This document shows positions 2,818 to 48,163 of a stretch of 48,163 nucleotides of DNA, piece by piece. Every line of letters starts with the position of its first letter. Within the stretch, counting starts at the first letter, position 1. The notes below the pieces were generated by a model, which was given only the letters and a program-made list of their open reading frames with translations, made no database searches and had not been told where the DNA came from. The position numbers and the translations under genes are program-made. The DNA lies in NCBI GenBank assembly GCA_902514615.1, contig CABXRG010000006.1, forward strand, positions 1 through 48,163, given 5' to 3'. The stretch is from an uncultured Bacteroidota bacterium (GTDB lineage: Bacteria > Bacteroidota > Bacteroidia > Flavobacteriales > Flavobacteriaceae).

Positions 2818-3347
2818 TGAGATACTTATATATACTTTTATTTTTTTTCATTAGCAATATTTACTCACAAGAAATATGGCAAATAGATCAAAATTCTTCA
2901 CAAATAAAGTATTCAGGCAGTCATTTTCTTCATAATTGGAGCGCTGAAAATAATAATATTGCAGGTGTAATTAAGATTAATGATAGCTCAATTGAAAATA
3001 TTGGAGTTGTTGCCAAAGTTTCAGAATTTGAAAGTGGAAATTCTAATTTGGATAGTAATTCTTATAGAGTTTTAGAGGCCTTAAGGTTTCCTAATATAAT
3101 TTTTAAATCCGTAATAATTAATAATCAAGAAAATACACCTTCAATTGAAGGAGTTTTAAATTTCCATGGAATTGAAAAAAATATTTTTGTTGATTTGACA
3201 TTCAACCACAAAGAAAATTCAGTTCAAATAGAAGGAATGTTTGCTGTTAAATTATCAGATTTTCAAATAAAGCGACCTTCACTAATGCTTCAAAAGGTAG
3301 ACGATGAAATTTTAGTTGAGCTTAACTTAATTTTTGTAAAAGGCTAA
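2817..3347 (+). CDS. YceI family periplasmic protein
   Basis: 176 residues with a signal peptide ending near YSQ (residue 18). The mature part begins W-x-I-D-x-x-x-S-x-I-x-Y and continues with features of YceI-like domains: G-V-I-K-I near 50, 'ALRFPNIIFKS' near 90 and 'GVLNFHGIEKNI' near 115. Members form an extended lipocalin-like barrel that binds polyisoprenoids or quinone-like lipids in the periplasm. It is translationally coupled to the upstream membrane protein through TAATG and overlaps the convergent esterase gene by 4 nt at its 3' end. Confidence 0.85.
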   Translation: MRYLYILLFFFISNIYSQEIWQIDQNSSQIKYSGSHFLHNWSAENNNIAGVIKINDSSIENIGVVAKVSEFESGNSNLDSNSYRVLEALRFPNIIFKSVIINNQENTPSIEGVLNFHGIEKNIFVDLTFNHKENSVQIEGMFAVKLSDFQIKRPSLMLQKVDDEILVELNLIFVKG

Positions 3348-4228: not shown

Positions 4229-4284
4229 AGAACCAATTTATGAAATATATCTTATATTTAAGGATAACCAATAAATCAATCAAA

Positions 4285-4812
4285 ATGAAAAAAATATTTT
4301 TAACACTATTACTAAGTTTTGCAATTATAAGTTGTGAAAACAATCAATCTGATGTAAGTTCAGATTATCCTACTATTATCGATGAATCAGAATTAGTAGA
4401 GCTATCAAATAAGCAATATGAAGCTATGAATTCAGGTGATATTGAATCAGTTGTTGACATGTATGCTGATGATGCTATGTGGTCTTTTCCTAACGGAGTT
4501 AATATGGAAGGCAAAGATGCTATAAGAGGTATGCTTGAATCAACCACAAGTATCTGGAATATTACTTCAGGAGATGATACAAATTACATGGCAATGAAAG
4601 GAACTGATACTAATGAAGATGGTGAAGAGTTTGAATTTCATGTTCTTTTAAGTTGGGGTCCTCAAACATTTGCTAATGATGATACATCAATTACTGTTCC
4701 TTATCACAGCGCAACTTTCTTTGTAGGCGAGGATAAAAAAATCCAATGGACTGGAGCATTCTATGATAGAACAAAATTTGTTGAAGCATATGATGTAGAT
4801 CCAATAAAATAA
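4285..4812 (+). CDS. NTF2/SnoaL-like lipoprotein (first of three)
   Basis: 175 residues from the ATG at 4285. The frame is open to 4240, but only the inner start puts the lipoprotein signal MKKIFLTLLLSFAIISC at the N-terminus (C17). The mature part resembles an NTF2-like cone fold: a helix with 'NKQYEAMNSGDIESVVDMYADDAMW', then G-K-D-A-I-R-G and beta strands. This fold serves ketosteroid isomerase-type enzymes as well as binding proteins; no catalytic set is evident here. A strong terminator follows at 4835. Two further NTF2-like lipoproteins lie next to it. Confidence 0.75.
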   Translation: MKKIFLTLLLSFAIISCENNQSDVSSDYPTIIDESELVELSNKQYEAMNSGDIESVVDMYADDAMWSFPNGVNMEGKDAIRGMLESTTSIWNITSGDDTNYMAMKGTDTNEDGEEFEFHVLLSWGPQTFANDDTSITVPYHSATFFVGEDKKIQWTGAFYDRTKFVEAYDVDPIK

Positions 4813-4834
4813 AGTTTAATATTTTATTATAATT

Positions 4835-4864
4835 AAACCCCTGATTTACAGGGGTTTTTTTATT
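4835..4864 (+). terminator. Rho-independent terminator after the first NTF2-like gene
   Basis: A perfect 9-bp stem, AAACCCCTG / CAGGGGTTT (4835-4843 with 4849-4857), 5-nt loop, followed by a T run. Confidence 0.9.
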
Positions 4865-4868
4865 TTTG
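4861..4868 (+). promoter_or_regulatory. Candidate -7 box for the second NTF2-like gene
   Basis: TATTTTTG matches the Bacteroidota -7 consensus TAnnTTTG, 20 nt before the ATG at 4889. It begins inside the T tract of the preceding terminator. No clear -33 TTTG is seen. Confidence 0.45.
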
Positions 4869-4888
4869 AGATATATAAAAATTAAATT

Positions 4889-5422
4889 ATGAGAAAACTA
4901 GCTTTATTATTAATTATTTTATTTGCTTCATGTGAAGCTCCAACAACAGGAGTTAGTGAAGCAGATTCAAACACATTTGAAAAAAATGTTGAAACTTTAA
5001 AGAATAACTTCATTAAAGGGTACGAAGAAGGAGACTATGATAAAGTAGTTTCTGTATTTGCAGATTCGATTAGGTGGTATGGGCCTGGAGTTAATGCTGA
5101 AATGCTTCAAGGAATTGATATCTTAAAAGAAAATGTTTCTTTTTGGATGGGTAATTTTGAAAATATTTCTTTCACAGAAGGTGGTGGTCTTCCGGGCACT
5201 GATATTGGTTTCTGGGGTGGAAATACCTATCCTGTTTCTGATGCAATGTCTGGACCAAATAATGTAAGAATGTATGGTACATGGGATATAACTAACTCAA
5301 CAACTGGGAAAGAAGCAACATTTAAACATTACGTGGTGTTAAATTTTAATGAAGATGGTCAAGTACACACAGTTACTGAATATGCAGATGTAGGTGGATT
5401 AATGGCTACTTTTGAAGAGTAA
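4889..5422 (+). CDS. NTF2/SnoaL-like lipoprotein (second of three)
   Basis: 177 residues with signal and lipobox MRKLALLLIILFASC (C15). The mature region shows 'GYEEGDYDKVVSVFADSIRWYGPGVN', G-I-D-I-L-K-E-N-V near 75-84, and a final strand 'HYVVLNFNEDGQVHTVTEYADVGG', the order typical of NTF2-like domains. It has its own candidate promoter and a strong terminator downstream, so it is probably transcribed separately from the first copy. Function unknown; the three copies differ a lot in sequence. Confidence 0.75.
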   Translation: MRKLALLLIILFASCEAPTTGVSEADSNTFEKNVETLKNNFIKGYEEGDYDKVVSVFADSIRWYGPGVNAEMLQGIDILKENVSFWMGNFENISFTEGGGLPGTDIGFWGGNTYPVSDAMSGPNNVRMYGTWDITNSTTGKEATFKHYVVLNFNEDGQVHTVTEYADVGGLMATFEE

Positions 5423-5522
5423 TTGTTAATAATTAATTTACATCAATCAAATCTCATTAAAAAAATCTTAATAGATTTAATCGTTAGCTTAAGCTAACAT
5501 AAATTGGTTTATGGTTAATTAA

Positions 5523-5556
5523 AAACCCTCAAGAACTTTCTTGAGGGTTTTTTTAT
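5523..5556 (+). terminator. Rho-independent terminator after the second NTF2-like gene
   Basis: A perfect 12-bp stem, AAACCCTCAAGA / TCTTGAGGGTTT (5523-5534 with 5539-5550), loop ACTT, then T residues. The A-rich left flank could also let it act for the opposite strand. Confidence 0.9.
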
Positions 5557-5663
5557 AATGTCGTAGATGACAATTGTAAGACTATTAACCTATAAGTAAA
5601 TTATTAAATATTACTATTAAAAGATAATTTACTGTGTTATAGTTATCTACAAACTTTTAACAA

Positions 5664-6164
5664 CTATTGAGAATTTCCTCTAATAGAGTACTGACTTAAA
5701 GTTATTATTTTACCATCTACCACATAATAACTTTCATGCTGTTGGTTAGTATATTCTTCTCTTTCGTCAGTAGCGGGATATGTAACAGTAAATCCTGCTT
5801 GAACATGTTCACCACCAATTGATGGATCTAGATCAACAGAAAAAGCATAATCATATGACCAAGAAGCAGTATCCCCAGTACTAATTGATTCAATAAATGA
5901 GTCAAAAGTAGATGTAGAAATACCATTTGGTCTTAAGACAACAACAGAATCAGCAAAAAATGATCTCATTCCTTCGTAATCTTGATTAGTCCATAATTCA
6001 TCAACTGTATTAACAACGTCAATTGCTGATTGAGTTCCAAGATGCCATTGAGCATCAGAATTTTCACCTGTAACAAAGCCAATGGCTCTTTCCGGTAAAT
6101 TAGAATCACATCCACCTAAAAATACGACAGATGCTAAAAGTGTGATTAAAATTGAATTTTTCAT
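5664..6164 (-). CDS. NTF2/SnoaL-like lipoprotein (third of three)
   Basis: 166 residues with lipoprotein signal MKNSILITLLASVVFLGGC (C19). The mature part has 'VDELWTNQDYEGMRSFFADSVVVLRPNG', the helix and first strand of an NTF2-like domain, and ends in 'ESYYVVDGKIITLSQYS', the usual final strand. It converges on the two plus-strand NTF2-like genes across the terminator at 5523. Function unknown. Confidence 0.75.
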   Translation of the reverse strand: MKNSILITLLASVVFLGGCDSNLPERAIGFVTGENSDAQWHLGTQSAIDVVNTVDELWTNQDYEGMRSFFADSVVVLRPNGISTSTFDSFIESISTGDTASWSYDYAFSVDLDPSIGGEHVQAGFTVTYPATDEREEYTNQQHESYYVVDGKIITLSQYSIRGNSQ

Positions 6165-6448
6165 TGTAATTGTTTAAGCAGTAAATATATAACTATTTAG
6201 TAAAAAATATATGTACTATTTTTAACATGTATTGTTTATAAATTAATAATATTTTAATAAAGTAGTTTTATTTAGTTATAATTATATAATATGTGCTTAT
6301 AAAAAAATAATAATGAATAATATAATGAACATACAAATTTTTATAATGTATTAATAATACAATTAGTGATACATAGATTAAAACTTTATTGCTTAAATAA
6401 TAAGATTATTTAAAAATTTTTGTAACCTTTGCTACTCAAAATATAATA

Positions 6449-6916
6449 ATGAAAAAATTAATACTACTACTTATAATAATAACTAGTTCATGTGTTGGGC
6501 CTCGAACGATTAATTATAACAATGAACCAAACACTCAAATAGATTTCTATACTTCTGAAAATACTAAAAAGCTTGACTTTCCCTTTTCTGATGCGACCAT
6601 TGTAAACAATGTAATATATGTTGCTGGGCAAGTTGGAAATATACCAGGCACAAATGAAGTAGTACCAGGGGGGATTAAAGAAGAAACTAAACAAACAATG
6701 AAAAACATAGAAGGTGTATTAACATCGCTAGGTAGTTCAATGGATAAAGTTTTTAAATGCACATGTATGTTGTCTGATATTTCAGAATGGGGAGCTATGA
6801 GTGAGGAATACAAAAAGTTTTTTAAGAAAAACAGAAGACCTTCAAGAAGTGCTTTTGCAGGTACTGGTCTAGCGCTTGGCGCAAAGGTTGAAATAGAATG
6901 TTGGGCAATTAAATAA
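6449..6916 (+). CDS. RidA/YjgF/UK114 family protein with lipoprotein signal
   Basis: 155 residues. A lipoprotein signal MKKLILLLIIITSSC (C15) precedes a complete RidA-fold domain: 'IYVAGQVGNIPGTNE' (56-70), 'NIEGVLTSLGSSMDKVFKCT' (86-105) and 'PSRSAFAGTGLALGAKVEIE' (131-150). R133 aligns with the arginine that deaminating RidA proteins need for 2-aminoacrylate/imine hydrolysis. Classical RidA is cytosolic, so an envelope-anchored version is unusual. The 284-nt gap before it (6165-6448) is very AT-rich; the only signal I see is 'taacctttg' shortly before the start, an imperfect -7 box. Confidence 0.85.
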   Translation: MKKLILLLIIITSSCVGPRTINYNNEPNTQIDFYTSENTKKLDFPFSDATIVNNVIYVAGQVGNIPGTNEVVPGGIKEETKQTMKNIEGVLTSLGSSMDKVFKCTCMLSDISEWGAMSEEYKKFFKKNRRPSRSAFAGTGLALGAKVEIECWAIK

Positions 6917-6918
6917 TA

Positions 6919-7119
6919 TTAACGCTTTTGATTAACAGAAGACTCTGTAATTAATTCAGCAAGCAATTCATCTGCTTTTTCGTCCGCTTCAGATTGTTTT
7001 TTGGAATCAAATTTTTTGTAAACTGACATAAAATGATTGGCTGTTCTCTTAGAGATTTTTTTTAGAAGAAGAGCTTCGTTAACCCTTCTAAGGAAAATAC
7101 TTTTAGAATTAATTTGCAT
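6919..7119 (-). CDS. Small basic hypothetical protein
   Basis: 66 residues, rich in Lys/Arg and Glu and predicted helical (RVNEALLLKKISKRTANHFM, then SEADEKADELLAELITESS). It has no signal peptide or known motif. It fills the space between ridA-like and the first DUF5916 gene without overlapping either, and its composition is protein-like, so it is probably real. It ends 3 nt from the convergent RidA-like gene. Function unknown. Confidence 0.5.
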   Translation of the reverse strand: MQINSKSIFLRRVNEALLLKKISKRTANHFMSVYKKFDSKKQSEADEKADELLAELITESSVNQKR

Positions 7120-7250
7120 GGTTATAGTTAACTAAAATTAAGAAAAATTCTGAAGTATACTAACTTTTTAAAGCTTTATTAAATAGATTAAAGAGGAAAG
7201 AAACTGCCTGCCAATAAAAGCAAAATAGTAAATGTTTGGTTTAAAGTATA

Positions 7251-9491
7251 TTAAGATTTTATTAAATACTGAAACTTCATAAATAATTGAGATTTATTTA
7301 CTCTGTAATTAGGAGAATTATAATCAATAAATTCATCTACAAGGTTTTGATTTCCTCCAAAATAAAATATTGTGTCAGGATTTGGCCTCCATGATATTAG
7401 GGGCTGGGTAAAAAATTGATCAGAAAATTCATTGTACTCAGATATAACTCTAAAGTCTAAAGAACTAGTAAACTGGTATCTAATATCAAGTCTTGCGATA
7501 TAGCCATCAAAAAAATATTCATCAGAATCTAATTTTTGTAATCTTGAAAAGTTAATGGAAGGTTTAATTCGTAAATTGTCATTAAGAGTAATCTCAACTG
7601 AAGTATTAAAAGAGAAACGCTCACCCAACTCTGGTATTTCTTCACGATATGCTATTTCATTTCCTGTACCAAATCCACCTTGAATATTCATGAAATCAAA
7701 AGGTTTTGATGAAATTCTTACGTAATGACTCGTAAAGTTTTCAAATTCTGAGACTAAGTGAGTGTCATAAAAAGCGTGTTCATAGTTATAAAATATGTCT
7801 GTATTTAAAATTGTAAGAACAGTAAAATATGCTTCAAACGCTGACCTTTTTAATTTATTGGAGTAACTATACTCTCGATCATATCTTGCGCTAATTCTAT
7901 AATTTTTAAGATACTTCTTGTCAGGATACTTATAGTAACCATGCCATAATTCATATTTCTTTAGATCATTTTGAACAATAAACCCGTTATCAGCCCTAAA
8001 AGTTGGAGAAATTCCAGTATATCTTAAAAATGACCTCCAATTTTGAGTATCTCTTCTAAGTTCACTATATATTGCATTTCCAGTAAAACTTTCTCCGTCA
8101 AGATTTACTGTATAATCACCAAATTTTTTATCAGTGTCTATCCAGTCTGCGACAGGCTCTTTGTTTGAGTTTTTAAAATATTCTAGTTCAAATTTCCAGC
8201 CACCTGAAAACTTTAAAAGCGCATCCAGTCCTAATAAATTCCCATAGGCATCACCATTATAGAGCCTATTTGTGGCAAGTGCTCCAATTTGAATATTTGG
8301 ATTTAAAATATTTTGATACCTGAGTACATTATTAAAACTTCTTCCCCCAACTCCTGAGAACGATTCAAATTGCGTTGGCACTACATATGGGGAATCTTGA
8401 TCTACAGCAGTAAGCATATAAATTCTTGATTTTCTGCCTTGATTCAAAACTTTAGATGCAAACGAGGGATTATTTATTGATCTAGAATAATAAACATCCA
8501 TTGTATAATCCATCACATCTATCCCTCTGGTAAAAAAAGGTCTTCTTTCTGGATAATTAATTGCAGTGGGAGAATTAATATCAATCTTTGTTACATCTGC
8601 CTCAACTTGTGAAAAATCAGGATTTAAAGTAGCCTCTAAAGATAGATTTTTATTGATTTCAAGATTTACTCCAATTCCATAATTTACTTCTGGATTTGAG
8701 TAGTTTACTCGATCATAAAATTTCTCTCTTTCACCTGATAAATTAGAGCTTACATAAGGTAAGAAATCTAAGTTCTTCTTATAGCTTATATCATTCATTA
8801 ATATTGTATGATCAATCTGGCACAGCTTGCAAGAACTGTCATTGTCAAGTTTACTGCTGTAAGCCCGTACAGTTGATCCTTGTTTTATTTCATCTCTATA
8901 ACCTGTGCTAAGTTTAAGCTTCCATTTTTGATCTTTGCCATTAGGAAAAGGGATAGCTGAAAAAGGTATTATGACTTCAACTTCATATCCAAAATCTGTA
9001 AGTCTTCCCAGTGATTCCCAATTAAAATTTGGATCAAGACTCCAACCGCTACTTTGGCTTCCAAATCCAGATGATTCAACTCTAACACCGTCACTTTGAC
9101 TTCCATAAATATTTGCACTAAAACCAAGATTATTTCTAGCATCCCCATATGTGTCAATATGGATATTCACATAATCTTCTGAGAATAAGGAAAAATTATC
9201 TCTTGAAAGTATTGATGCAGTAACTTCATCTCTATAAGCTTTAAATGCTATGTATACAAATTCCTCAGAATAGTTAACATATCCTGTTGTTCTGTATGAT
9301 GGCACAGTGTTGTAACCTGGAGTGTGTTCATAAATAATCTCAATAGGAAAAGCATTTTTCAATTCTGATTCAGAAAGAATTCCATCCAAATTAAACTCAT
9401 CAGCTGATGTTTTAACTAGATTCAATAATTGATCCTGTGAAAAACAAAAAGTAATAGAAAGTAAAAAATAAAGAAAAATAACTTTTTTCAT
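7251..9491 (-). CDS. DUF5916 protein: CBM9-like domain plus outer-membrane-type beta region
   Basis: 746 residues with a signal peptide ending near FCFSQ (residue 19). Residues about 30-215 resemble a CBM9-like carbohydrate-binding domain ('DGILSESELKNAF', 'EVEVIIPFSAIPFPNGKDQ'). The remainder is strand-rich and contains the family hallmark 'NPDFSQVEADVTKIDINS' followed by YPERRPFF. It ends in alternating aromatic residues (MKFQYLIKS), as expected for a beta barrel inserted in the outer membrane. The role of DUF5916 proteins is not established. A paralogue lies at 19381-21618. Confidence 0.85.
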   Translation of the reverse strand: MKKVIFLYFLLSITFCFSQDQLLNLVKTSADEFNLDGILSESELKNAFPIEIIYEHTPGYNTVPSYRTTGYVNYSEEFVYIAFKAYRDEVTASILSRDNFSLFSEDYVNIHIDTYGDARNNLGFSANIYGSQSDGVRVESSGFGSQSSGWSLDPNFNWESLGRLTDFGYEVEVIIPFSAIPFPNGKDQKWKLKLSTGYRDEIKQGSTVRAYSSKLDNDSSCKLCQIDHTILMNDISYKKNLDFLPYVSSNLSGEREKFYDRVNYSNPEVNYGIGVNLEINKNLSLEATLNPDFSQVEADVTKIDINSPTAINYPERRPFFTRGIDVMDYTMDVYYSRSINNPSFASKVLNQGRKSRIYMLTAVDQDSPYVVPTQFESFSGVGGRSFNNVLRYQNILNPNIQIGALATNRLYNGDAYGNLLGLDALLKFSGGWKFELEYFKNSNKEPVADWIDTDKKFGDYTVNLDGESFTGNAIYSELRRDTQNWRSFLRYTGISPTFRADNGFIVQNDLKKYELWHGYYKYPDKKYLKNYRISARYDREYSYSNKLKRSAFEAYFTVLTILNTDIFYNYEHAFYDTHLVSEFENFTSHYVRISSKPFDFMNIQGGFGTGNEIAYREEIPELGERFSFNTSVEITLNDNLRIKPSINFSRLQKLDSDEYFFDGYIARLDIRYQFTSSLDFRVISEYNEFSDQFFTQPLISWRPNPDTIFYFGGNQNLVDEFIDYNSPNYRVNKSQLFMKFQYLIKS

Positions 9492-9610
9492 TTCTAATTT
9501 TAGACACCAAAGAAATTAAAAAGTTTTAATTATATAAAAATATTAAAGTTAAAAGGTAGTTAAATCAATAATTTAAGTAATAAACAGTAGTTCTAAAGAT
9601 GTAACAAATT

Positions 9611-9787
9611 CTATTTCCTAAAACCCAAAAATTTTTTAATATTACTAGAATATCTGATCCATATTGCGGCTAAACTCCAAAAAGAGCCCAAGGGAATCCA
9701 CCACAATGCAATTACCATTGCATAAAACTCTTTTTTATTAGCACTCTGAACTTTTTTTTTAAGATTACTGTATTTCAGTTTTTCCAT
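9611..9787 (-). CDS. Small single-span membrane protein
   Basis: 58 residues from the ATG at 9787; the frame is open eight residues further, but the inner start begins MEKLKYSNLKKK. A basic N-terminal part leads to a hydrophobic segment 'FYAMVIALWWIPLGSFWSLA', then a basic tail (RYSSNIKKFLGFRK). The positive-inside pattern and lack of overlap with other genes argue for a real gene. No family recognised. Confidence 0.5.
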   Translation of the reverse strand: MEKLKYSNLKKKVQSANKKEFYAMVIALWWIPLGSFWSLAAIWIRYSSNIKKFLGFRK

Positions 9788-9848
9788 TTGACTCCAATAA
9801 GATAAATGCAATTTCTACAAATTTATAATAAGTTTAATTAATAAATTT

Positions 9849-11108
9849 CTATGTAAGTGCCATTTCTTTTATAGCAGTAATGAATTGATCAAGCTCTTTT
9901 GTTGTTGTAAAAACATTAGGACTAATTCTACAACCTTTTACATTTGCATAATCAATTGCAACTGTAAATATTTTATACTTTTTAAATAGCGTCTTTGCCA
10001 TTTCAGATGGAGTCATGTTTAATAGTCCGATATTTCCAATGCCACAACTTCTATGCATTTCCTCAGGAGTATTAATGATTACATTTCTTACTTCCCTAAG
10101 CTCATCTGACCAATATCTTTGGAGAAATCTCATTCTATTTTCTTTCTTTTTCATACCAATCCATTTTATATAATCAATTGAGTTTGATATTGCCAAATCG
10201 GTATGAACTGGGTGAGTTCCAATATGATTTAATCTTTTTATATCATTTTTATTTGTATTTCCATTTGCTAATAAAGGCCATATTTTATGTGTGTTATTTT
10301 TATTTATATAAAGAAGACCTGCTCCAAGGGGTGTTGCAAGCCATTTATGAAGGCTAGATCCATAATAATCACAATTAAATTCATCAATTGAAAAATCAAA
10401 ATGTCCAATACAGTGGGCACCATCAACCATCACTTCAACCCCATAGCTATGTGCCATTTCACATATTTTCTTAACAGGAAGAATCTGCCCGGTTATATTT
10501 ATCATATGACAAATCATGATAAGCTTAGTATTACTTGTTATTTGACTTTCGTATAATGAAACTATCTCTTGATCATTTTTAGGATGATTGGGAACAGAAA
10601 TAATTTTATTTACAGTTCCATATCTATCTGAAACCTGCTCAAACATCTCTTTCATTGTTCCATAGTCTTGCTTAGCATAAATTGCCTCATCACCTTTTTT
10701 CCATGGAAAACCAGAAATTATTAGATCCAGAGATTCAGTAGCATTTCTTGTTATTCCAATTTGATCAGAAGTAGACCCAACCAACTCTGCTAATTCACTT
10801 ATAACTCTATTTTTATTTTTTTTTAGCTCATATCTCATATAATAAGAACCTTCAACATTCACATGCTTAACATGATTAATTAAATGTTCCAAAACAGGAT
10901 TGGGAATAATATTGTAGTAACCACTTTCAAGATTTATATAATCATCTTTCAAAGTATAATGTGATCTAATGGTCTTCCATAGCTCTTTATCATCATCAAT
11001 TGATGGAAGGGTATCAGACATCAAATTAATTTTACCTAGCTGATTTGCGGAAAGTAACGGTGAAACAGAAAGTGCACCAAGTGTTTTTATAAAATTTCTC
11101 TTATCCAT
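9849..11108 (-). CDS. Class V aminotransferase-fold PLP enzyme with export signal
   Basis: 419 residues. The N-terminus MDKRNFIKTLGALSVSPLLSA resembles a Tat signal (KR instead of RR), so the enzyme may be exported. The fold-type I PLP features are 'GITRNATESLDLI' (118-130, phosphate cup), 'VDGAH' with D229 (pyridine N ligand) and 'SSLHKW' with Lys255 as the Schiff-base lysine. This places it with the isopenicillin-N epimerase / cysteine desulfurase-like group. No desulfurase-type catalytic cysteine loop is evident near the C-terminus, so an epimerase or lyase role is more likely. Substrate unknown. Confidence 0.85.
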   Translation of the reverse strand: MDKRNFIKTLGALSVSPLLSANQLGKINLMSDTLPSIDDDKELWKTIRSHYTLKDDYINLESGYYNIIPNPVLEHLINHVKHVNVEGSYYMRYELKKNKNRVISELAELVGSTSDQIGITRNATESLDLIISGFPWKKGDEAIYAKQDYGTMKEMFEQVSDRYGTVNKIISVPNHPKNDQEIVSLYESQITSNTKLIMICHMINITGQILPVKKICEMAHSYGVEVMVDGAHCIGHFDFSIDEFNCDYYGSSLHKWLATPLGAGLLYINKNNTHKIWPLLANGNTNKNDIKRLNHIGTHPVHTDLAISNSIDYIKWIGMKKKENRMRFLQRYWSDELREVRNVIINTPEEMHRSCGIGNIGLLNMTPSEMAKTLFKKYKIFTVAIDYANVKGCRISPNVFTTTKELDQFITAIKEMALT

Positions 11109-11140
11109 TTTATTGTTAATTTTACTTCAATTTAATAAAA

Positions 11141-11356
11141 ATGTTCAAGGAAATAAGTTTTTACCTATTGATTTTCATGCTGTTAAGTGGCTGTTCTAAG
11201 TCAGAAAATGAAAATTGTAAATCTGAAAAAAAAATTATTGCATGTACTAAAGAATATATGCCTGTTTGTGGTTGTGATAATATTACTTATTCAAACAAAT
11301 GTGTAGCTGAATCTGAAGGTGTCAATACCTGGACGTCTGGAGTATGCTCTGATTAA
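11141..11356 (+). CDS. Kazal-type serine protease inhibitor domain lipoprotein
   Basis: 71 residues: lipoprotein signal with C18 (LLSGC), a short linker, then one Kazal-like domain with six cysteines (C26, C35, C43, C45, C54, C69) and the core 'PVCGCDNITYSNKC'. The TYSNxC motif is diagnostic of Kazal/follistatin-type domains. A surface- or periplasm-anchored inhibitor of serine proteases is the likely role, perhaps against self or predator/host proteases (inference). Transcribed divergently from the PLP enzyme; its 3' end overlaps hutG by 4 nt. Confidence 0.85.
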   Translation: MFKEISFYLLIFMLLSGCSKSENENCKSEKKIIACTKEYMPVCGCDNITYSNKCVAESEGVNTWTSGVCSD

Positions 11357-12330
11357 ATCCTCTCTGTTATTATACTTACTATTTGTGCAGCTAACTTAGT
11401 AGTAATAAAATCTATATCATACTTAGGGTTAAGCTCAACTACATCAATCGCGACAACATTTTTTGTTTTTAAAACATGTTCAAAGACTGATCTAAAAAAG
11501 TTTACCGAAAACCCAAAAGGACCTGGTGCGCTAACTCCGGGAGCATGAGAAGATGCAAAACCATCTAAGTCAATGCTTACGTATAGTGAATCAAAATTTA
11601 TAAAGTTTTCATCAATTCTATTAAGAACATTATCTAAATTAATCAATTCACACTCTTCAATAGAAATATGATTAACTCCTAATTCAGATGCAATTTTATA
11701 CAATAATTCAGAATTAGAGGGTTTTTGAATTCCTAGTGCTAGGTAATTAGTGTTTGATCCAAACTCATTCATTATTTGATAAAAAGGTGTGCCAGAATTT
11801 GCTCCATTTGTTGTTGGTCTTAAGTCAAAATGAGCATCAAAATTTAAAATTCCTATTTTATCAGTACCCAATTTTGAAAGAGCTTTTTTTATTCCACAAA
11901 AATGACCATATGCAATGTCATGACTTCCTCCTATTCCAATACTCAGTTGTCCAGATTGTATTATTTCACAGATAATATTTGAATAAAGTTCTTGTGCTAG
12001 TTCAATTTTATCTTCAAAAGCAAAAACATCACCATAATCCGTAATTGTTTTTTTGGTAAATTGAACTGGTAATTTTCCCAATTGTTCTCTAATTGCCTTA
12101 GGTCCATTTTTAGCTCCTTGTCTTCCATTATTCCTTCTAACTCCTTCGTCACACGAATATCCTAAAATACCAAAATCACTATGTAAATTATCAGATTTTA
12201 ATTTATCAAATCCATCTTCAAAAACTTTTATTACTTCATGCCAGTAGTGATTTTGAGAAGAGGATTTAGATTTTATCCCACTCCATAATTTTGATTCAGG
12301 TGGGTTATAATATTTAATTAATTTATTCAC
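11353..12330 (-). CDS. hutG: Formimidoylglutamase (arginase family)
   Basis: 325 residues. Arginase-family manganese-binding motifs are present: GGSHDIAYG, NFDAHFDLR and SIDLDGFASSHAPGVSAPGP. Together with the three preceding hut genes this identifies it as the enzyme hydrolysing N-formimidoyl-L-glutamate to glutamate and formamide, the last step of histidine degradation. It is the last gene of the operon; its ATG overlaps the hutI stop by 4 nt. Agmatinase is the alternative inside the family, but context decides. Confidence 0.93.
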   Translation of the reverse strand: MNKLIKYYNPPESKLWSGIKSKSSSQNHYWHEVIKVFEDGFDKLKSDNLHSDFGILGYSCDEGVRRNNGRQGAKNGPKAIREQLGKLPVQFTKKTITDYGDVFAFEDKIELAQELYSNIICEIIQSGQLSIGIGGSHDIAYGHFCGIKKALSKLGTDKIGILNFDAHFDLRPTTNGANSGTPFYQIMNEFGSNTNYLALGIQKPSNSELLYKIASELGVNHISIEECELINLDNVLNRIDENFINFDSLYVSIDLDGFASSHAPGVSAPGPFGFSVNFFRSVFEHVLKTKNVVAIDVVELNPKYDIDFITTKLAAQIVSIITERI

Positions 12331-13571
12331 GTATTTAACAAAGGTTTTCCATTAATATATACTTCATCAATTAAGTTTGACCCAAATGAATATGGTATCA
12401 TTGAATATGACGGTATTTCTTTTGTAATAATCAGATTAGCTTTTTTACCTTTAGTAATGCTTCCTGCTTTTTTTGATAAACCCATTGCATAAGCACCATT
12501 AATAGTAGCTGCATTAATTGCTTCTTCAGGAGACATTCCCATTTTTGAGCAAGCCAATGAAACTACAAAATTCATGTTTCCAGAAGGAGCTGAACCAGGG
12601 TTATAATCAGATGCTATTGCCAAAGGAATATTATTGTCCATGATTTTTCTTGCAGAGGTGTATGGGATGTTTAAGAAAAAAGAGCAATTGGGTAATGCAA
12701 CTGGCATAGTGTTTCCTTTTTTTATCGCATTTATATCTTGATCATTTAAAACTTCTAGATGATCAATTGTTAATGAATCAAGATCTACACAAAGGGGAAC
12801 TCCGCCAAAAGAATTAAATTGGTTAACATGAATTTTTGGTATCAGACCATGATCCTTTCCAGCATTAATGATTGACCTTGTTTCCTCAATATTAAAGTAG
12901 CCCTTTTCACAAAAAACATCAATATAATTAGCAAGTTTCATTTCCGAAACTTTTGGAATCCATTGGTTAATAATCTTTGAGATAAATAAATCTTTTTTAT
13001 CAAAATATTCTTTTGGAACAGCATGAGCTGCTAAAAAGGTAGGCTGAATTAATGCATCATAATTTTTGCTTAATTTATCAATCACTTTTAACATTTTAAT
13101 CTCAGCTGATAATTCAAGTCCATATCCTGATTTTATTTCTATAGCTCCCGTTCCTAATTTCATAACTTCTTCTAATCTAAGAGCACTTTTTAAATATAAT
13201 TTTTCAAACGTCTCTTCCTGAAGTTTTTTAGCAGAATTCAGAATACCACCTCCTTTCTTTGCAATTTCCTGATAGCTTAATCCTGATATTCTATCTACAA
13301 ACTCGTCTTCTCTGGATTCAGAAAAAACTAAATGAGTATGCGAGTCACACCAAGCAGGCAAAATGAATCTTTCCTTAACGTCTATTACTTTATCTACATC
13401 TACAGTTGGACTATCATTCATAATACCATAATCTATAATTTGATCATCTTCAATTAATAGAAATGCATTATTTATTTTAGACAGCTTCTTCATTTGATGA
13501 CCATCTAAATACTCTATTGAATTATCAAGAGTCTGAAGCAGTCCTTTTATGTTTTTAAAAAGTATTTTCAT
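12327..13571 (-). CDS. hutI: Imidazolonepropionase
   Basis: 414 residues, the usual length. The amidohydrolase metal motif is CDSHTHLVF (H78, H80) with the following E-S-R-E-D-E-F; further sites are FLAAHAVP and the late 'IASDYNPGSAPS' that is typical of HutI. It opens the imidazolone ring to give N-formimidoylglutamate. Third gene of the hut operon, with 4-nt overlaps on both sides, so translation is probably coupled. Confidence 0.95.
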   Translation of the reverse strand: MKILFKNIKGLLQTLDNSIEYLDGHQMKKLSKINNAFLLIEDDQIIDYGIMNDSPTVDVDKVIDVKERFILPAWCDSHTHLVFSESREDEFVDRISGLSYQEIAKKGGGILNSAKKLQEETFEKLYLKSALRLEEVMKLGTGAIEIKSGYGLELSAEIKMLKVIDKLSKNYDALIQPTFLAAHAVPKEYFDKKDLFISKIINQWIPKVSEMKLANYIDVFCEKGYFNIEETRSIINAGKDHGLIPKIHVNQFNSFGGVPLCVDLDSLTIDHLEVLNDQDINAIKKGNTMPVALPNCSFFLNIPYTSARKIMDNNIPLAIASDYNPGSAPSGNMNFVVSLACSKMGMSPEEAINAATINGAYAMGLSKKAGSITKGKKANLIITKEIPSYSMIPYSFGSNLIDEVYINGKPLLNT

Positions 13572-15568
13572 TTATACAAAGAATCTAAAATACTGTCATC
13601 TACTTGTTCTGGAATTATAACTTTTAATTCATCTGTTCTTTTCATTTCATGTTTGATTGCTCTAATAGCAGGTTTATTTCTAGCCCAACTTCTCCTTGCT
13701 ATTCCATTATTAACATCAAAAAATAACATCCTTTCTATTTTTTTTTCAGCCTTTTTGGTGCCATCCAATAACATTCCAAAACCGCCGTTAATAACTTCCC
13801 CCCAACCAACACCACCACCATTGTGAATTGAAACCCAAGTTGCTCCTCTAAAACTATCACCTATAACATTGTGAATTGCCATATCAGCTGTGAATTGACT
13901 ACCATCATAAATATTTGATGTTTCTCTATATGGAGAATCTGTACCACTAACATCATGATGGTCTCTTCCTAAAATTACGTTTCCAATTTCTTGCTTTGAA
14001 ATAGCTTCGTTAAAAGCTTTAGCAATCTTAATTCTTCCCTCTGAATCAGCGTATAAAATTCTAGCTTTGGATCCAACAACTAATTTGTGTTTTTGAGCAT
14101 CCTCGATCCATTTAATATTATCATCTAATTGACCTTGTATTTCCTTTGGAGCTTTTTCTTTAATTTTAATTAGAATGTTTTTAGCTATTTCATCTGTTTT
14201 TTTAAGATCTTCTTCTTTTCCTGATGCACAAACCCACCTAAATGGACCAAAACCATTATCAAAACAAACAGGTCCTAATATATCCTGAACGTATGATGGG
14301 TATCTAAACTCTGTTTTCTTATCGTTCATCACATCAGCGCCAGCTCTAGATGCTTCTAATAAAAAAGCATTGCCATAGTCAAAGAAATAAGTCCCTCTAT
14401 TAACATGCATTTTAATTGCCTTTGAATGTTTTTTTAAAGACTCTTGCACTTTTTCTTTAAAAAGCATAGGATCATTTTTCAACAAAGTGTTTGCCTCTTC
14501 ATAATTTAAATCAACCGGATAATATCCTCCAGACCAAGGATTGTGAAGCGAAGTTTGATCAGAACCAATTGTAACATCAATTTCCTCTTTAAAAAAAGCT
14601 TCCCATACGTCAACTATATTTCCTATGTAAGCAAATGATACTATTTTTTTATCTAATTGAGCTTCTTTAACTAACTTAACTAACTCGCTAATTTCAAAAA
14701 CCAGTTTATCTACCCATCCTTGATCATGTCTTTTTTTGGCAGCAGAATAATTTACCTCTGCTGTAACCGAAATACAACCAACAATATTTCCTGCTTTAGG
14801 TTGAGCTCCACTCATTCCTCCTAGTCCTGAAGTAAGAAAAATTTTTCCTCTAACAGATTCTCCTTTTTTAAGAACTTTTCTAAAAGCATTCATCAAAGTA
14901 ATTGTAGTTCCATGAACTATTCCTTGTGGACCGATATACATAAAAGATCCTGCAGTCATTTGTCCATATTGCGTTACACCCAAAGCATTAAACTTTTCCC
15001 AATCATCAGGTTTAGAATAGTTGGGTATCATCATTCCGTTTGTAATAACGAGTCTAGGCGATTTCTTTGAAGAAGGAAAAAGTCCCATAGGATGGCCTGA
15101 ATACAGGTGTAAAGTTTGATTATTATTTATCTCAGCCAAGTACTTCATTGTCAATAAGTATTGAGCCCAATTTTGAAAAACAGCTCCATTACCACCATAT
15201 GTAATAAGCTCCTGAGGATGTTGAGCAATTTCCTCGTTTAAATTATTCTGTATCATTAACATTATTGCTGCTGCCTCATTAATTTTTGCTGGATATTCAT
15301 CTATTGGTCTAGCATATATAGAATAATTTGGTTTAAATCGAATCATATATATTCTGCCATAAGTATCTAATTCTTTACTAAAATCATGAGCAAGTTCTTT
15401 ATGCCATTCTTTTGGAAAGTATCTCAAGGCATTTTTTATAGCCAACTTCTTTTCATCTATACTTAATATTTGTTTTCTCCTGGGAGCAGGATTCAACTTT
15501 GGGTCAATTGATTTGGGTTTTGGAAGTTCTTTTGGAATTCCTTGTAAAATTTGTTGTTGAAAACTCAT
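13568..15568 (-). CDS. hutU: Urocanate hydratase
   Basis: 666 residues, about 100 longer than the proteobacterial enzyme (about 555). Urocanase signatures are clear: YGGNGAVFQNWAQY, SGHPMGLFPS, TSGLGGMSGAQPKA (NAD site), 'CFDNGFGPFRWVCASG' with a conserved Cys near residue 446, and GGGVGWGEVINGGFGM. It converts urocanate to imidazolonepropionate using tightly bound NAD+. Second gene of the operon; ATG overlaps the hutH stop by 4 nt. Confidence 0.96.
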   Translation of the reverse strand: MSFQQQILQGIPKELPKPKSIDPKLNPAPRRKQILSIDEKKLAIKNALRYFPKEWHKELAHDFSKELDTYGRIYMIRFKPNYSIYARPIDEYPAKINEAAAIMLMIQNNLNEEIAQHPQELITYGGNGAVFQNWAQYLLTMKYLAEINNNQTLHLYSGHPMGLFPSSKKSPRLVITNGMMIPNYSKPDDWEKFNALGVTQYGQMTAGSFMYIGPQGIVHGTTITLMNAFRKVLKKGESVRGKIFLTSGLGGMSGAQPKAGNIVGCISVTAEVNYSAAKKRHDQGWVDKLVFEISELVKLVKEAQLDKKIVSFAYIGNIVDVWEAFFKEEIDVTIGSDQTSLHNPWSGGYYPVDLNYEEANTLLKNDPMLFKEKVQESLKKHSKAIKMHVNRGTYFFDYGNAFLLEASRAGADVMNDKKTEFRYPSYVQDILGPVCFDNGFGPFRWVCASGKEEDLKKTDEIAKNILIKIKEKAPKEIQGQLDDNIKWIEDAQKHKLVVGSKARILYADSEGRIKIAKAFNEAISKQEIGNVILGRDHHDVSGTDSPYRETSNIYDGSQFTADMAIHNVIGDSFRGATWVSIHNGGGVGWGEVINGGFGMLLDGTKKAEKKIERMLFFDVNNGIARRSWARNKPAIRAIKHEMKRTDELKVIIPEQVDDSILDSLYK

Positions 15569-17064
15569 AGCTCTGGATAGACATTTAAATCATGATTCTC
15601 AATTAAACTTATCATCTGGTCAATGTCTGTATTTAACATCCTATCATCCTCTAGTTTTTTTATGTTTTTGCGTATTCTAGAAAACGTTTTTTCAATAGGA
15701 GTAGAAAATCTATTTGGACGTCTATATTCAAGAGCTTGAGACGCTAGTAATAATTCAATTGCAATAATTTTTTCAAGATTATTTATGACCTTGAGACAAA
15801 TTCTGCCTGAAATACTACCCATAGAAACATGATCCTCTTGTCCCATACCTGTTGGGATACTATCTGCAGAAGATGGAAAACAAAGTGACTTATTTTCTGA
15901 AACTAACGCTGCAGTAGTATATTGAGTAATCATGAAACCAGAATTAAGTCCTGGATTTTTAGTTAACATTGGAGGAAGTCCATGTAAGCCTTCTAGAAGC
16001 AAATAACTTCTTCTGTCTGATATGTTTCCTATTTCAGATGTGGCTATTTTCAAATAATCAATTGCTAAAGCTAAAGGTTGTCCATGAAAGTTTCCGCCTG
16101 AAATAGTTAAATCATCATCAAGGATTATTGGATTATCGGTCACTGAGTTAATTTCAACATTTACTAATTCTTTTAAATGACTTAATGCATTTCTTGAAGC
16201 TCCATGAACTTGAGGAGTACATCTTATTGAATACGGATCTTGAACTCTTTCACAATCAATATGTGAATTTGAATTTTCAGAGTCCTTCAATAAACCAGAA
16301 ATTCTTTTAGCCACTTTAATGCTTCCCTTAAAAGGCCTTAACTCATGAAGCTCTTTTCTAAAGGGAGCTAAACTTCCTTGAAACCCCTCAAGAGTCATTG
16401 CTGATGCTAAATCAGCCAAATCAAAAATATATTCAAGTTTTGAAATTGCCTTAATAGCATGCGATAAAATAAATTGAGTTCCATTGATTAGGGCTAGTCC
16501 TTCTTTTGCATTTAAATCTAGAGATTTCAATTTATGTTTTTTGAGAATTATTTCTGACTCTACTTTCTCTTCTCCATTCCAAAAAAATCCTTCTCCAATA
16601 ACTGGAAGAAACAAGTGGGCTAGTGGAGCTAGATCTCCTGAAGCACCTACTGAACCTTTTTCCGGAACATATGGAGTCAAGTTATTTTGAAAAAAATAAA
16701 TAAGACGTTCTAATAATTCTATACTAACACCTGAAAATCCCTTAGATAATGATATTATTTTACACAGAAGCATAATCCTAGATAATTCAGGATCAATTGG
16801 ATCTCCAACACCAACTGAATGACTCAGCAATAAATTTCTTTGTAAAATTTTAGTCTCATCCGAGCTAATTCTTTTTGTGCACAAGGGTCCGAAACCAGTA
16901 TTTATACCATAAACAGGGCTTGAGTTTTTTGCAATTTTTTGAGAACGCTCATAACTTAATATGATTTTTTTTCTCAACACTGTATTTAATTTAACTTCAT
17001 GGGGATTATCCAAGAAAAAATAAATATCATCTACCGATAAATTAGAATTTTCAATACTTAACAT
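15565..17064 (-). CDS. hutH: Histidine ammonia-lyase
   Basis: 499 residues. The MIO prosthetic group forms from A141-S142-G143 in GSVGASGDLAPLAH. Y52 (VYGINTGFG) corresponds to the catalytic tyrosine, and other family blocks are INGTQ, 'FHGQPLALAIDYL' and 'GQEDHVSMGS'. It deaminates histidine to urocanate. First gene of the operon hutH-hutU-hutI-hutG, and the promoter should lie in the 150 nt before it. No hut-specific regulator is adjacent; the divergent PadR gene belongs to another operon type. Confidence 0.96.
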   Translation of the reverse strand: MLSIENSNLSVDDIYFFLDNPHEVKLNTVLRKKIILSYERSQKIAKNSSPVYGINTGFGPLCTKRISSDETKILQRNLLLSHSVGVGDPIDPELSRIMLLCKIISLSKGFSGVSIELLERLIYFFQNNLTPYVPEKGSVGASGDLAPLAHLFLPVIGEGFFWNGEEKVESEIILKKHKLKSLDLNAKEGLALINGTQFILSHAIKAISKLEYIFDLADLASAMTLEGFQGSLAPFRKELHELRPFKGSIKVAKRISGLLKDSENSNSHIDCERVQDPYSIRCTPQVHGASRNALSHLKELVNVEINSVTDNPIILDDDLTISGGNFHGQPLALAIDYLKIATSEIGNISDRRSYLLLEGLHGLPPMLTKNPGLNSGFMITQYTTAALVSENKSLCFPSSADSIPTGMGQEDHVSMGSISGRICLKVINNLEKIIAIELLLASQALEYRRPNRFSTPIEKTFSRIRKNIKKLEDDRMLNTDIDQMISLIENHDLNVYPEL

Positions 17065-17091
17065 GATTAAATTTAATTCAATGTTTTACTT

Positions 17092-17099
17092 TAAAGATA
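17092..17099 (-). promoter_or_regulatory. Weak candidate -7 box for the hut operon
   Basis: Minus-strand TATCTTTA matches 7 of 8 positions of the TAnnTTTG-type box, about 27 nt upstream of the hutH ATG. No -33 element seen. Confidence 0.3.
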
Positions 17100-17183
17100 G
17101 CAATATCAATATATAATAATGCAAATTAAGAAACATTAGAAAAATAAATATTTGAATTTATTTTAGATTATTAGAAATATTTT

Positions 17184-44115: not shown

Positions 44116-47091
44116 ATGAAAAATATTTTAAATAAGTATTATCTAGCCTTTATGGCTGTGATTTTATTTGGTAGTGTTTATTCTCAAACTCAAATATCTG
44201 GTTCAGTTATGGATGCAGATAGTATGGAATCAATTCCAGGAGTAAACGTTATCATTGATGGCACAAACATTGGAACAGTTACAGATTTCGATGGAAATTT
44301 TGTCATTAATACAAGTCAAGATGCACCCTTAACTCTAGTTGTAAGCTATATGGGATATAGTGGAGAAAGAGTTAGTGTAACATCTACAAATCAAAATATA
44401 AATGTAATGCTTAGCGCAGGACAAAACCTAGAAGAGGTTATTATTTCTGCATCAAGAAGTGCTCAAAAAGTTACTGATGCTCCTGCATCCGTTAGTGTAA
44501 TTTCTTCTAGGCAGATTGAAAATTCAGCTCAAGTTGCTGAGCCTTCAAGAATTCTTGTATCTGTGCCCGGTGTTCAAATACAACAACAAACTGCAAACTC
44601 TCTTAATGTTGAAATGAGAGCTGGATCCGGAGTTTTCGGAACATCTACTTATATAATGAGAGATAATAGAGGATTAATAACTCCTGCTGCAGGGACTTTC
44701 TTTAGTTTCCAGCAAGGTCTTTCTAACTTAGATTTAGCCTCTGTTGAAATAGTTAGAGGTGCTGCAGGTGTATTGTATGGGCCTGGTGTAACTTCTGGTG
44801 TAGTTCACTTTAGATCAAAAAGTCCTATTGACTACACTGGTAATTCTGCTTCATTTTGGGGTGGAGAACTGAATACTTTTGGTTCTGAATTTAGAATTGC
44901 AAGAGCAAATGATGATAAGACTTTTGGGTGGAAAATTAATGCTAGAGTAAACTCTGGTGATGATTTTACTTATGATGATGAAGCTTCATTAGCTGCTGAC
45001 GTCGGTGGAATAAAAAGTATAATTAGACAACCTGTTATTACAAACATGGCAGTTGACCCTCTTTTATCTCAAAATGGAGATGTATTGTATGACTTTACAG
45101 GAGGAAATGCTATTTTAGATACCTATAGCAATGTTGCTTTTGACACAAATTTAGAGTGGAGACCAAGTGATGATACGAATTATCAAGTTAGTGCAGGTAT
45201 GACTAATGGAGGTGGTCTATTCTTTCAAGACTTAGGTATTGGATATGCTGATGGTAGTACATATTGGGGTCAAGTTCAGGCTACAATGGGTAACTGGTAT
45301 GCTCAAGCTTTTATAGACCATAATGATGGTGGTGGAACAGATAATCCAACATTCTTGTATGGTACAGGTTTACGTCAGGTAGCCAAAAGAACAACAATGG
45401 AAGCTCAAATTCAATACAACTTTGATATGCCTTGGCTGTTTGATTCAGAATGGACTGTAGGATATGATTATAGGAATACTGATTCTGACTCTGAATATAC
45501 TCTATGGGGAAGAAATGAAGATACTGATGACTATATAACTAACGGTATTTATGGTCAAGGAACTTTAACAATGTCTGAAAAAGTAGACCTTGTAGTTGCT
45601 GGTAGATATGATCAAGCTAGTTTTATTAGCACAGGAGAATTTGCTCCTAGAGCAGCTCTTGTATATAAGCCTTCCGAGAAAACAACTTGGAGACTTTCGT
45701 ATAACAAAGCTTTATCTGGACCTAGTGCGCTTCAAATGTATATTGACTTCCCAGTAAATGTACCGGCACCTGGAGTTTTAGATGCATGGTTAAGTGGGCA
45801 AAGTACTGCACAGCGTTTTGCTGATCCAGCAAATCAAGTAATTGATTTAGCAGGACTTCCTTTTGATATTCCTGTTTCGGCTGCAAGTAATGGATTGCCC
45901 TTAGCAATTCCTTATGGTGCTGTTGCTGGTGCTTCTCTTGCAGGTTTATATGCACAGGTTCCTGCGCTTCAACCATTATTAACACCATTTTTTGCAAGCT
46001 ATATGGGACCATCTGGTGGATCAGGAGTTTTATCTCCTTATGATTTATTCGAACCTACTCAGACTACTGGTAACAGAAATACAAGAACTGGAAGATTCAG
46101 CTCTGTAGAAAACTTTGAATTAGGATTTAGTAGTGTTATTGGTAAAAAGTTAAAAATTAGTGCTGATATATATTCTTATGTTAACACAGGTTTTACAAAC
46201 TTTAGTGCAATTGGAGATACATATGCATTAGTTGGATCAAATATTCCAGGAGATTTAGGAGCAGCTGTTGCTGCTGATGCTGCTGGTTATGTGAATCAAG
46301 CTTTAACTCCAGCTGTAACTGCTGGTGTAACAGCTGCCGTGCAAGCAGGATATACAGCAAACGGAATTCCAGAATTTTTATGGGCAACTGGAGCACCTGC
46401 TGGGGCACTTTTCCCTGGTTCACCAGCTATAGCACCTGTATCCGCAGCAGTTGCTGCTGCTCTTCCAGATGCATTGGCTGCGCAAGCAGGACCAATTTTA
46501 GGTGGAATTAACGGTGCATTTCAAGCAGGTGGTCAAGGTTTCGTTGGTCAATTAGGTCCATTATTTGGTGCTATAGGTGCTGTTGAATCTGATAGAGTTC
46601 CTCAAGGAGATGGAATTACTCACATTACAACAGGATATATTACTCAAGGAGATGCTAAAAGATCTCACTTTGGTGGAGATTTAAGCATGGATTACTTTGC
46701 TAACTCTGACTTAAGACTATGGGCAAATGCTTCATGGTTAAGTCAAAACGAGTGGATTCCTGGAGAAGATAATGATGATGATTTACTTAATACATCATAT
46801 CTAAATGCTCCTATGTGGAAATATAGAATGGGTGTTGATTATACTCCTCTAAGTGGTTTTAATTTCTCAGTTTCATTCCAACATGATGATAAATTTAGAT
46901 CAGTTCAAGGTTTCTGGAATGGTATGGTAGAAACTAAAAACTTAATTGATATGAGTATAGGATATAGATTTAGTCCAAACACAAGATTTGACATTTCTGC
47001 TACAAACCTTACTGATAACCCTTATAAGACATATCCTAATTTACCAACTATTAGAAGAAGAGTCTTAGGAAAACTTACTCTTAACTTCTAA
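44116..47091 (+). CDS. TonB-dependent outer-membrane receptor with CarboxypepD_reg-like N-domain
   Basis: 991 residues. Signal peptide ending SVYSQ (about 24). A CarboxypepD_reg-like domain (about 26-110; 'GVNVIIDGTNIGTVTDFDGN') is followed by the plug ('APASVSVISSRQIENSAQV', 'SVEIVRGAAGVLYGPGVTSG'). The barrel ends in 'RRRVLGKLTLNF', the usual terminal aromatic strand. Two barrel parts (about 542-651 and 711-825) are rich in Ala, Gly, Pro and Leu and unlike the rest, probably extracellular loops. No SusD-like partner is adjacent, so the substrate is unknown; nearness to fatty-acid genes is only suggestive. Confidence 0.92.
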   Translation: MKNILNKYYLAFMAVILFGSVYSQTQISGSVMDADSMESIPGVNVIIDGTNIGTVTDFDGNFVINTSQDAPLTLVVSYMGYSGERVSVTSTNQNINVMLSAGQNLEEVIISASRSAQKVTDAPASVSVISSRQIENSAQVAEPSRILVSVPGVQIQQQTANSLNVEMRAGSGVFGTSTYIMRDNRGLITPAAGTFFSFQQGLSNLDLASVEIVRGAAGVLYGPGVTSGVVHFRSKSPIDYTGNSASFWGGELNTFGSEFRIARANDDKTFGWKINARVNSGDDFTYDDEASLAADVGGIKSIIRQPVITNMAVDPLLSQNGDVLYDFTGGNAILDTYSNVAFDTNLEWRPSDDTNYQVSAGMTNGGGLFFQDLGIGYADGSTYWGQVQATMGNWYAQAFIDHNDGGGTDNPTFLYGTGLRQVAKRTTMEAQIQYNFDMPWLFDSEWTVGYDYRNTDSDSEYTLWGRNEDTDDYITNGIYGQGTLTMSEKVDLVVAGRYDQASFISTGEFAPRAALVYKPSEKTTWRLSYNKALSGPSALQMYIDFPVNVPAPGVLDAWLSGQSTAQRFADPANQVIDLAGLPFDIPVSAASNGLPLAIPYGAVAGASLAGLYAQVPALQPLLTPFFASYMGPSGGSGVLSPYDLFEPTQTTGNRNTRTGRFSSVENFELGFSSVIGKKLKISADIYSYVNTGFTNFSAIGDTYALVGSNIPGDLGAAVAADAAGYVNQALTPAVTAGVTAAVQAGYTANGIPEFLWATGAPAGALFPGSPAIAPVSAAVAAALPDALAAQAGPILGGINGAFQAGGQGFVGQLGPLFGAIGAVESDRVPQGDGITHITTGYITQGDAKRSHFGGDLSMDYFANSDLRLWANASWLSQNEWIPGEDNDDDLLNTSYLNAPMWKYRMGVDYTPLSGFNFSVSFQHDDKFRSVQGFWNGMVETKNLIDMSIGYRFSPNTRFDISATNLTDNPYKTYPNLPTIRRRVLGKLTLNF

Positions 47092-47185: not shown

Positions 47186-47556
47186 ATGAAAAAAGTAGGT
47201 ATAGATTCGTTGTCATATTACGTTCCTTCTCTGTATGTAGATATTGAGGAGCTTGCAATAAAGCGCGATATTTCAGCTGAAAAATTAATTAAAGGATTGG
47301 GGTTAAAAAAAATGGCAACCCCTGACTATGATGAGGACTCTGCTTCAATAGCAGCAAACTCTTTATACCGATTAATTAAAGAAAATAACATTGACCCTAG
47401 AGAGGTCGGCAGAGTTTATCTAGGAACTGAAAGTGGGGTTGATGCTTCTAAGCCTACATCATCTTACGTGGTTGAAATTCTTGAAGAAGTTTTTGCTAAG
47501 CAGTATGGTGAAAGATGTTTTAAAAATTGTGATATTGTTGATCTTACTTTTGCTTC
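47186..47556 (+). CDS. Hydroxymethylglutaryl-CoA synthase, N-terminal fragment ending at a junction
   Basis: The frame encodes a typical flavobacterial HMG-CoA synthase start: 'GIDSLSYYVPSLYVDIEELA', 'LIKGLGLKKMATPDYDEDSA' and GTESGVDASKP with catalytic E82. It then runs to NCDIVDLTFA (residue 123). In the family the next residue is the nucleophilic Cys; here the frame turns into antisense etfB sequence and stops at 47635. The gene is thus cut before its catalytic cysteine, about 30% through. It is either a chimeric join or a natural breakpoint. Intact, it would make HMG-CoA for the mevalonate pathway or an HMG-type step. Confidence 0.85.
47545..47556. other. Inverted chimeric junction with 12-nt shared stretch
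   Basis: TACTTTTGCTTC can be read both as the end of the synthase fragment (T-F-A) and, on the other strand, as the E-A-K-V near the end of EtfB. Homology to the synthase ends here and homology to EtfB begins here. Confidence 0.75.
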
Positions 47557-48163
47557 GTTTTCTAAAAGGTCTATAAGTCTATCCAAGTCATCAGGCTTTA
47601 TAAGCTTTACTTCGCTTTTAGCTTCAGGCTTATGAAACTTTTTATCACGGGTTTTTGCATCAATATTTTGGGCCTGAATTACTTCAAGAGGTTTTTGTCT
47701 TGCCATCATTATGCCTCTCATGTTAGGTATAATTAGATCACTTTCTCCTACTAATCCTTTTTGGGATCCAATCACTAATGGAATTTCACATTCACTTATC
47801 TCAGTTCCTCCTGATATTTCCCTTGCACATGTAGCCCTTGAATCTTTTATTTCAAGACTAACACAATTAGTAACAAAATTGTAATCTAGAAAACCGGCAA
47901 GCAGACCAGCAACTACACCTCCGTTATAATCAATAGATTCTCTACCACAAATTATTAGATCGTAATTAGTAGTAAGACAATGAGATTCAATTTCTTTAGC
48001 AACAGAATATGCGTCTTTAGCTTCACAATCAATTCTAATTGCTTTATCTGCTCCAATAGCCAAGCATTTTCTTAAAATTGTTTCTGAAGATTGACTACCA
48101 ACAGTAAGGACTGTCACGTTTGCGTCATTAGATTCTTTCATCCACACGGCCTTAGTTAGGCCA
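47545..48163 (-). CDS. etfB: Electron transfer flavoprotein beta subunit, partial
   Basis: The frame is open from the right window edge; in-frame residues LTKAVWMKE precede the first internal start codons, matching an EtfB internal region, so roughly the first 45-50 residues lie outside. Visible blocks are 'VTVLTVGSQSSETILRKCLA', 'DAYSVAKEIESH', 'DLIICGRESIDYNGGVV' (ADP/FAD region), 'PLVIGSQKGL' and the final 'DDLDRLIDLLENEAKV'. A normal EtfB would end within a residue or two, but here the frame runs on into antisense synthase sequence to 47464. EtfB passes electrons from acyl-CoA dehydrogenases to the respiratory chain; the expected partner etfA is missing. Confidence 0.88.

Follow-up and report, generated by a model that had tools for sequence, protein, structure and literature searches.

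At the right end of the window, i.e., the whole stretch of DNA analysed here, which is the entire 48,163-bp contig C6 of an uncultured, small-genome marine bacterium of the Flavobacteriaceae, the 5' part of a gene for HMG-CoA synthase (HMGCS) is joined to the inverted 3' part of etfB. This join is best explained as a fold-back chimera, inverted with an intervening deletion, produced during whole-genome amplification by phi29 polymerase (multiple displacement amplification, MDA), a reading to which we give a probability of about 0.75 and in which MDA itself is what we infer. When the technical origins are taken together (MDA, another technical step or a mixed origin of the pieces), it is very probable that the join is an artefact of some kind, and it is the native order of both genes in close relatives that makes a laboratory artefact most likely. 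The original prediction had held that such a join is present and that inverted joins of this kind are typical of MDA chimeras and of some assembly errors, a real inversion being possible as well. The join and its reading as an amplification-type chimera both stand, as 123 HMGCS codons are followed by reversed etfB up to the contig end, and the inversion is local and missing from the congeners searched, the attribution to MDA rather than to another technical chimera being our own judgement.

Reading frames at the contig end

The features of the contig end are collected in Table 1. In the plus-strand frame, residues 1–123 match intact synthases of congeners; the congener matches to HMGCS cover residues 1–124, and past the breakpoint, which was placed by comparison with 20 relatives, the remainder of the gene is missing. 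The residue that follows DLTFA in relatives is a cysteine, whose counterpart in the solved HMGCS 5hwq is the Cys of DTQHAC and which we take to be the catalytic cysteine of the enzyme. It had been proposed that the synthase frame is normal up to DLTFA and loses its homology just before this residue, and that the etfB frame runs into antisense synthase sequence, and both descriptions proved accurate: the plus frame leaves HMGCS after 123 codons for unrelated sequence, and the minus frame consists of 206 codons of etfB followed by 26 codons of antisense HMGCS. The tail of the plus frame matches the end of etfB, reversed, which in these congeners lies about 2 kb off on the other strand, and the minus frame gives the mirror-image result. 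Past the join, the plus strand is reversed etfB for 0.6 kb, until the contig ends, so that the etfB piece has lost 41 codons at its 5' end to the contig end and its stop codon to the join. A functional gene fusion was considered and rejected, since each of the two fusion ORFs arises from reading through into antisense sequence and since none of the congeners searched has the join.

Table 1. Features at the right end of the window (positions in the 48,163-bp contig).
Feature	Position	Strand	Evidence
TonB-dependent receptor gene, upstream of the join	44116..47091	+	Pfam Plug, TonB barrel, CarbopepD_reg_2
HMGCS 5' part: 123 codons and base 1 of codon 124	47186..47555	+	PF01154, E 1.9e-14
Junction run TTACTTTTGCTT, fitting HMGCS (+) and the antisense etfB 3' end	47544..47555	.	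Base-by-base comparison with 20 relatives
etfB 3' part, inverted	47544..48163	-	PF01012, E 5.6e-22; congener matches
Spurious 149-aa fusion ORF: HMGCS residues 1–123 and antisense etfB	47186..47635	+	
Spurious 232-aa fusion ORF, open at the contig end: etfB and antisense HMGCS	47464..48162	-	

For the TonB receptor gene, relatives show the same neighbour on the same strand, and it aligns forward with the stretches of 7/7 relatives. A segment at about 46313–46456 is unaligned in all seven, and in the comparison with L073 the 3' part of the receptor is 94.8% identical, the neighbouring HMGCS 82.4%; recombination and a variable barrel segment are both possible in this receptor.

Native gene order in relatives

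The relatives compared here are congeners, 24 of which were searched for HMGCS, etfB and the join; they include contig CAJIZN010000001.1 of Cryomorphaceae bacterium MED-G11 isolate FRAM18_bin151 (G017:C1), on which the window was mapped, as well as SGZE01000013.1 (G001:C5) and NTKQ01000021.1 (G002:C14). The order in relatives is TonB receptor, HMGCS, etfB and etfA, head to tail on one strand. HMGCS and etfB are found on the same strand and at native spacing in 21 of the 24 congeners; the two genes lie on two contigs in G006, etfB only was found in G013, and neither gene was found in G003. Wherever both genes share a contig in congeners, their orientation is a single one. Among the named congener loci, 20/21 have HMGCS, etfB and etfA in order (in L081 the contig end truncates etfA, and in L129 HMGCS is truncated), and as these loci come largely from the same genomes as the 24 searched congeners, the two counts are not independent. 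The one named locus outside this count is that of L085 (CAJPUS010000050.1), whose contig ends inside HMGCS about 60 codons past the breakpoint of the window, without an inverted tail.

The breakpoints, measured at window position 47554, are 1,795–1,872 bp apart in 20 relatives. The expectation that the two pieces come from separate places was therefore not borne out, HMGCS and etfB-etfA being adjacent on one strand in relatives with approximately 1.8 kb between the breakpoints, and an origin from distant loci is rejected on the same ground. This adjacency adds weight to the chimera reading, most MDA inversions being local. Related isolates had been named as the place to look for the same inverted arrangement, and the join was found in 0/24 congeners, all of them other species, as an MDA artefact predicts. 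That the 1.8-kb segment between the inverted 12-mers is truly inverted in this strain, which would break HMGCS and part etfB from etfA, is improbable in the light of this absence and of the native order in the 21 congeners, and it would also mean that two conserved metabolic genes are broken.

The shared run at the junction

Comparison with 20 relatives places the switch point within 47544–47555, i.e., TTACTTTTGCTT. To the right of this run, at 47556, the C of the window is the etfB base in 20/20 relatives, and HMGCS has G in 20/20; to its left, at 47543, the C of the window is the HMGCS base in 19/20 relatives, and etfB has A in 20/20. The 12-nt microhomology that had been proposed is upheld as a shared run, and its exact 12-mer has to be corrected by one base, being TTACTTTTGCTT and not TACTTTTGCTTC. 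The native genes of this organism would share up to 12 nt, a length that is estimated from relatives, since the run is 12 nt in 3/20 of them and 2–11 nt in the other 17 (2 nt in 5/20).

At the base composition of the window, the probability that a random inverted join shares at least 12 bases is about 3e-6. The window holds 39 inverted 12-mers within 2 kb of each other, against an average of 29.65 over 20 first-order Markov samples, two of these samples having 39 or more; inverted 12-mer pairs are ordinary in such an AT-rich window, and it is the location of one exactly at the join that is remarkable. The junction was likely formed by pairing at a run that existed by chance.

Common short-read assemblers use words longer than 12 nt. 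With 12 nt at the most, the shared run falls short of these words, which argues against an assembler error, and a physical chimeric molecule is therefore preferred; the join was probably present in such a molecule and not made by the assembler alone.

An inverted 12-mer pair is also the substrate that a real inversion would need; however, the repeat is not kept among the 20 relatives, as the counts given above show. Invertons, i.e., invertible DNA segments between short inverted repeats, occur in Bacteroidota. The present case is like an inverton in that a segment with short inverted repeats at its bounds is seen inverted, and differs from one in that its two breakpoints each fall within a coding gene, the repeat varies from 2 to 12 nt in relatives, only one orientation is seen in relatives and the second junction was not found. 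That a real, possibly reversible inversion of 1.8 kb switches mevalonate synthesis and electron transfer in this organism is highly improbable.

Mapping of the contig and missing sequence

In its main chain of matches, the contig runs along G017:C1 in the forward direction between 340003 and 385853, and its last 0.6 kb jumps to 387675 and then runs backwards. Four other short reverse matches within the window (172–638 bp, 65–71% identity) look like paralogues. Elsewhere in the window, the stretch 11343–17142 is unmatched at the corresponding G017 stretch, and four genes at 11353–17064 resemble a histidine-utilization cluster (aromatic amino acid lyase, urocanase, amidohydrolase and a member of the arginase family).

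The assembly to which the window belongs comprises 40 contigs and 1,026,256 bp, with a completeness listed as 80.56%. When it was searched with G017 385800–400000 and 400001–420000, with the best 40 of 143–171 first-look candidates scored per search, the matches were two pieces of C6 itself, three matches of 35–61 bp and the end of C12 at 419699. Apart from the inverted etfB piece, approximately 34 kb of the G017 map is unrepresented, and part of this may be a true difference in gene content. In agreement with the claim that etfA is absent, PF00766 (ETF alpha) has zero matches in the assembly, the same search being positive in 10/14 control genomes; PF08540 (the C-terminal domain of HMGCS) likewise has zero matches in the assembly, in a search positive in 4/14 control genomes. 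The reciprocal junction, the 3' part of HMGCS and the 5' part of etfB were not found in the assembly. That the second junction, these two gene parts and etfA are nowhere in it counts against a real inversion. The completeness of the assembly is no more than 80.56%, however, and the contig stops too early for a second junction to be seen; because a gap lies next to the contig end, the absence of this junction is not proof against such an inversion.

Other contig ends and an inversion in the same genome

The contig ends of the assembly were compared with 400 kb of G017, where 21 end stretches had any match and 20 are listed with matches longer than 100 bp; two of the 20 (C17_last and C27_first, single pieces at 66–69%) were dropped, and 18 were counted, some of them partly mapped. 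A terminal strand switch is seen at 1 of the 18 mapped ends, which is that of C6; C15_last was flagged merely for short pieces of 65–68% inside a full-length match. Comparison of 74 end stretches (4 masked) with each other gave no long inverted overlap: inverted matches within a stretch are at most 60 bp and all hairpin-like, and there is one inverted match of 105 bp (71%) between two contigs. Many fold-backs across the assembly, as a sign of MDA, are rejected, given the single switched end among 18 and the lack of long inverted overlaps in this comparison, a result that speaks against the MDA reading.

The flag of C16_first turned out to be an internal and complete inversion. In this contig of the same genome (L225), positions 2267–11847, approximately 9.6 kb, are inverted relative to G017:C1 305672–315326, with both junctions inside the contig; no long flanking repeats that bound the inversion were found among 25 of 41 inverted pairs. 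With both junctions present, the inversion in C16 indicates that species of this genus do differ by real inversions, and it is in this respect a point in favour of a real inversion at the end of C6 as well.

Lineage of the two pieces

It could also be asked whether the etfB piece is of foreign origin, in a chimera between species or strains, and this we regard as very improbable. The etfB piece shows 83.4% identity to its nearest relative, less than the HMGCS piece (87.1%) and the 3' part of the receptor (94.8%) show to theirs, as a foreign origin would suggest. However, in FastTree phylogenies both pieces share a clade with L073, L074, L075, L080 and L081, with clade supports of 0.951 (HMGCS) and 0.933 (etfB) and similar own branches (0.127 and 0.149, respectively). 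Since the two trees place them in the same congener clade, the HMGCS and etfB pieces are taken to stem from one lineage.

Probable amplification and other possible technical origins

The native genome would carry the genes for the TonB receptor, HMGCS, etfB and etfA head to tail on a single strand. Either a displaced 3' end in HMGCS, with TTACTTTTGCTT as its last bases, would pair with the complementary bases close to the end of etfB, some 1.8 kb off, or a 3' end in etfB would anneal back in HMGCS, the choice of the priming end being conjectural. The annealed 3' end would then be extended on the wrong strand, and the assembler would follow the chimeric molecule into the otherwise unrepresented region, where the contig stops 0.6 kb later.

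Inverted products of this kind, with segments less than 10 kb apart and a short shared run, form the principal class of MDA chimeras. In the study by Lasken and Stockwell (2007; PMC1855051), 406 of 475 chimeras were inverted, 337 of the 406 inversions involved segments less than 10 kb apart, and shared runs reached 21 nt. In a larger study (PMC4595205), shared runs peak at 6 nt, and distances, which extend from 0 to more than 5,000 nt, peak at 250–300 nt; the 1.8 kb and 12 nt found here are within the reported ranges and off both of these peaks. The join is like the inverted chimeras of the former study (PMC1855051) in that its second segment is inverted relative to the native genome, its segments are less than 10 kb apart with the interval deleted (here 1,795–1,872 bp), and its complementary junction run falls within 2–21 nt (here up to 12). 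Nothing in the sequence differs from the inverted chimeras as that study (PMC1855051) describes them, and phi29 amplification is what we infer in the present case.

A chimera from library ligation, PCR template switching or an assembler error in scaffolding or gap closing is unlikely, if well short of negligible, and it would account for the same evidence, i.e., a local and inverted join, absent in relatives, with the contig end beside a gap. The contigs of the assembly are sorted by length down to a floor of about 2.2 kb, a pattern compatible with a metagenome-assembled genome (MAG) and with a single-cell genome alike, and several congener records are MAGs. AG-plate names, which presumably denote single-cell amplified genomes from ocean surveys, occur at 12 of the 21 named congener loci, and 7 of those 12 are titled MAG. 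What speaks against these other technical steps, besides the length of the shared run in the case of the assembler, is that MDA typically yields local inversions accompanied by a deletion, as described by Lasken and Stockwell (PMC1855051).

Implications for genome annotation

If true, an inversion at this site would represent an unusual switching of metabolic genes, which the evidence does not favour. The join is most likely an artefact and not biology, and as such it is useful for annotation only. It illustrates a cheap check, in which contig ends are compared with collinear relatives in search of a change of strand within a few kb that comes with a short shared run. Neither fusion ORF is to be annotated as a gene, and in this way two false genes, as well as a false loss of HMGCS and etfA, are avoided in the reading of this genome.
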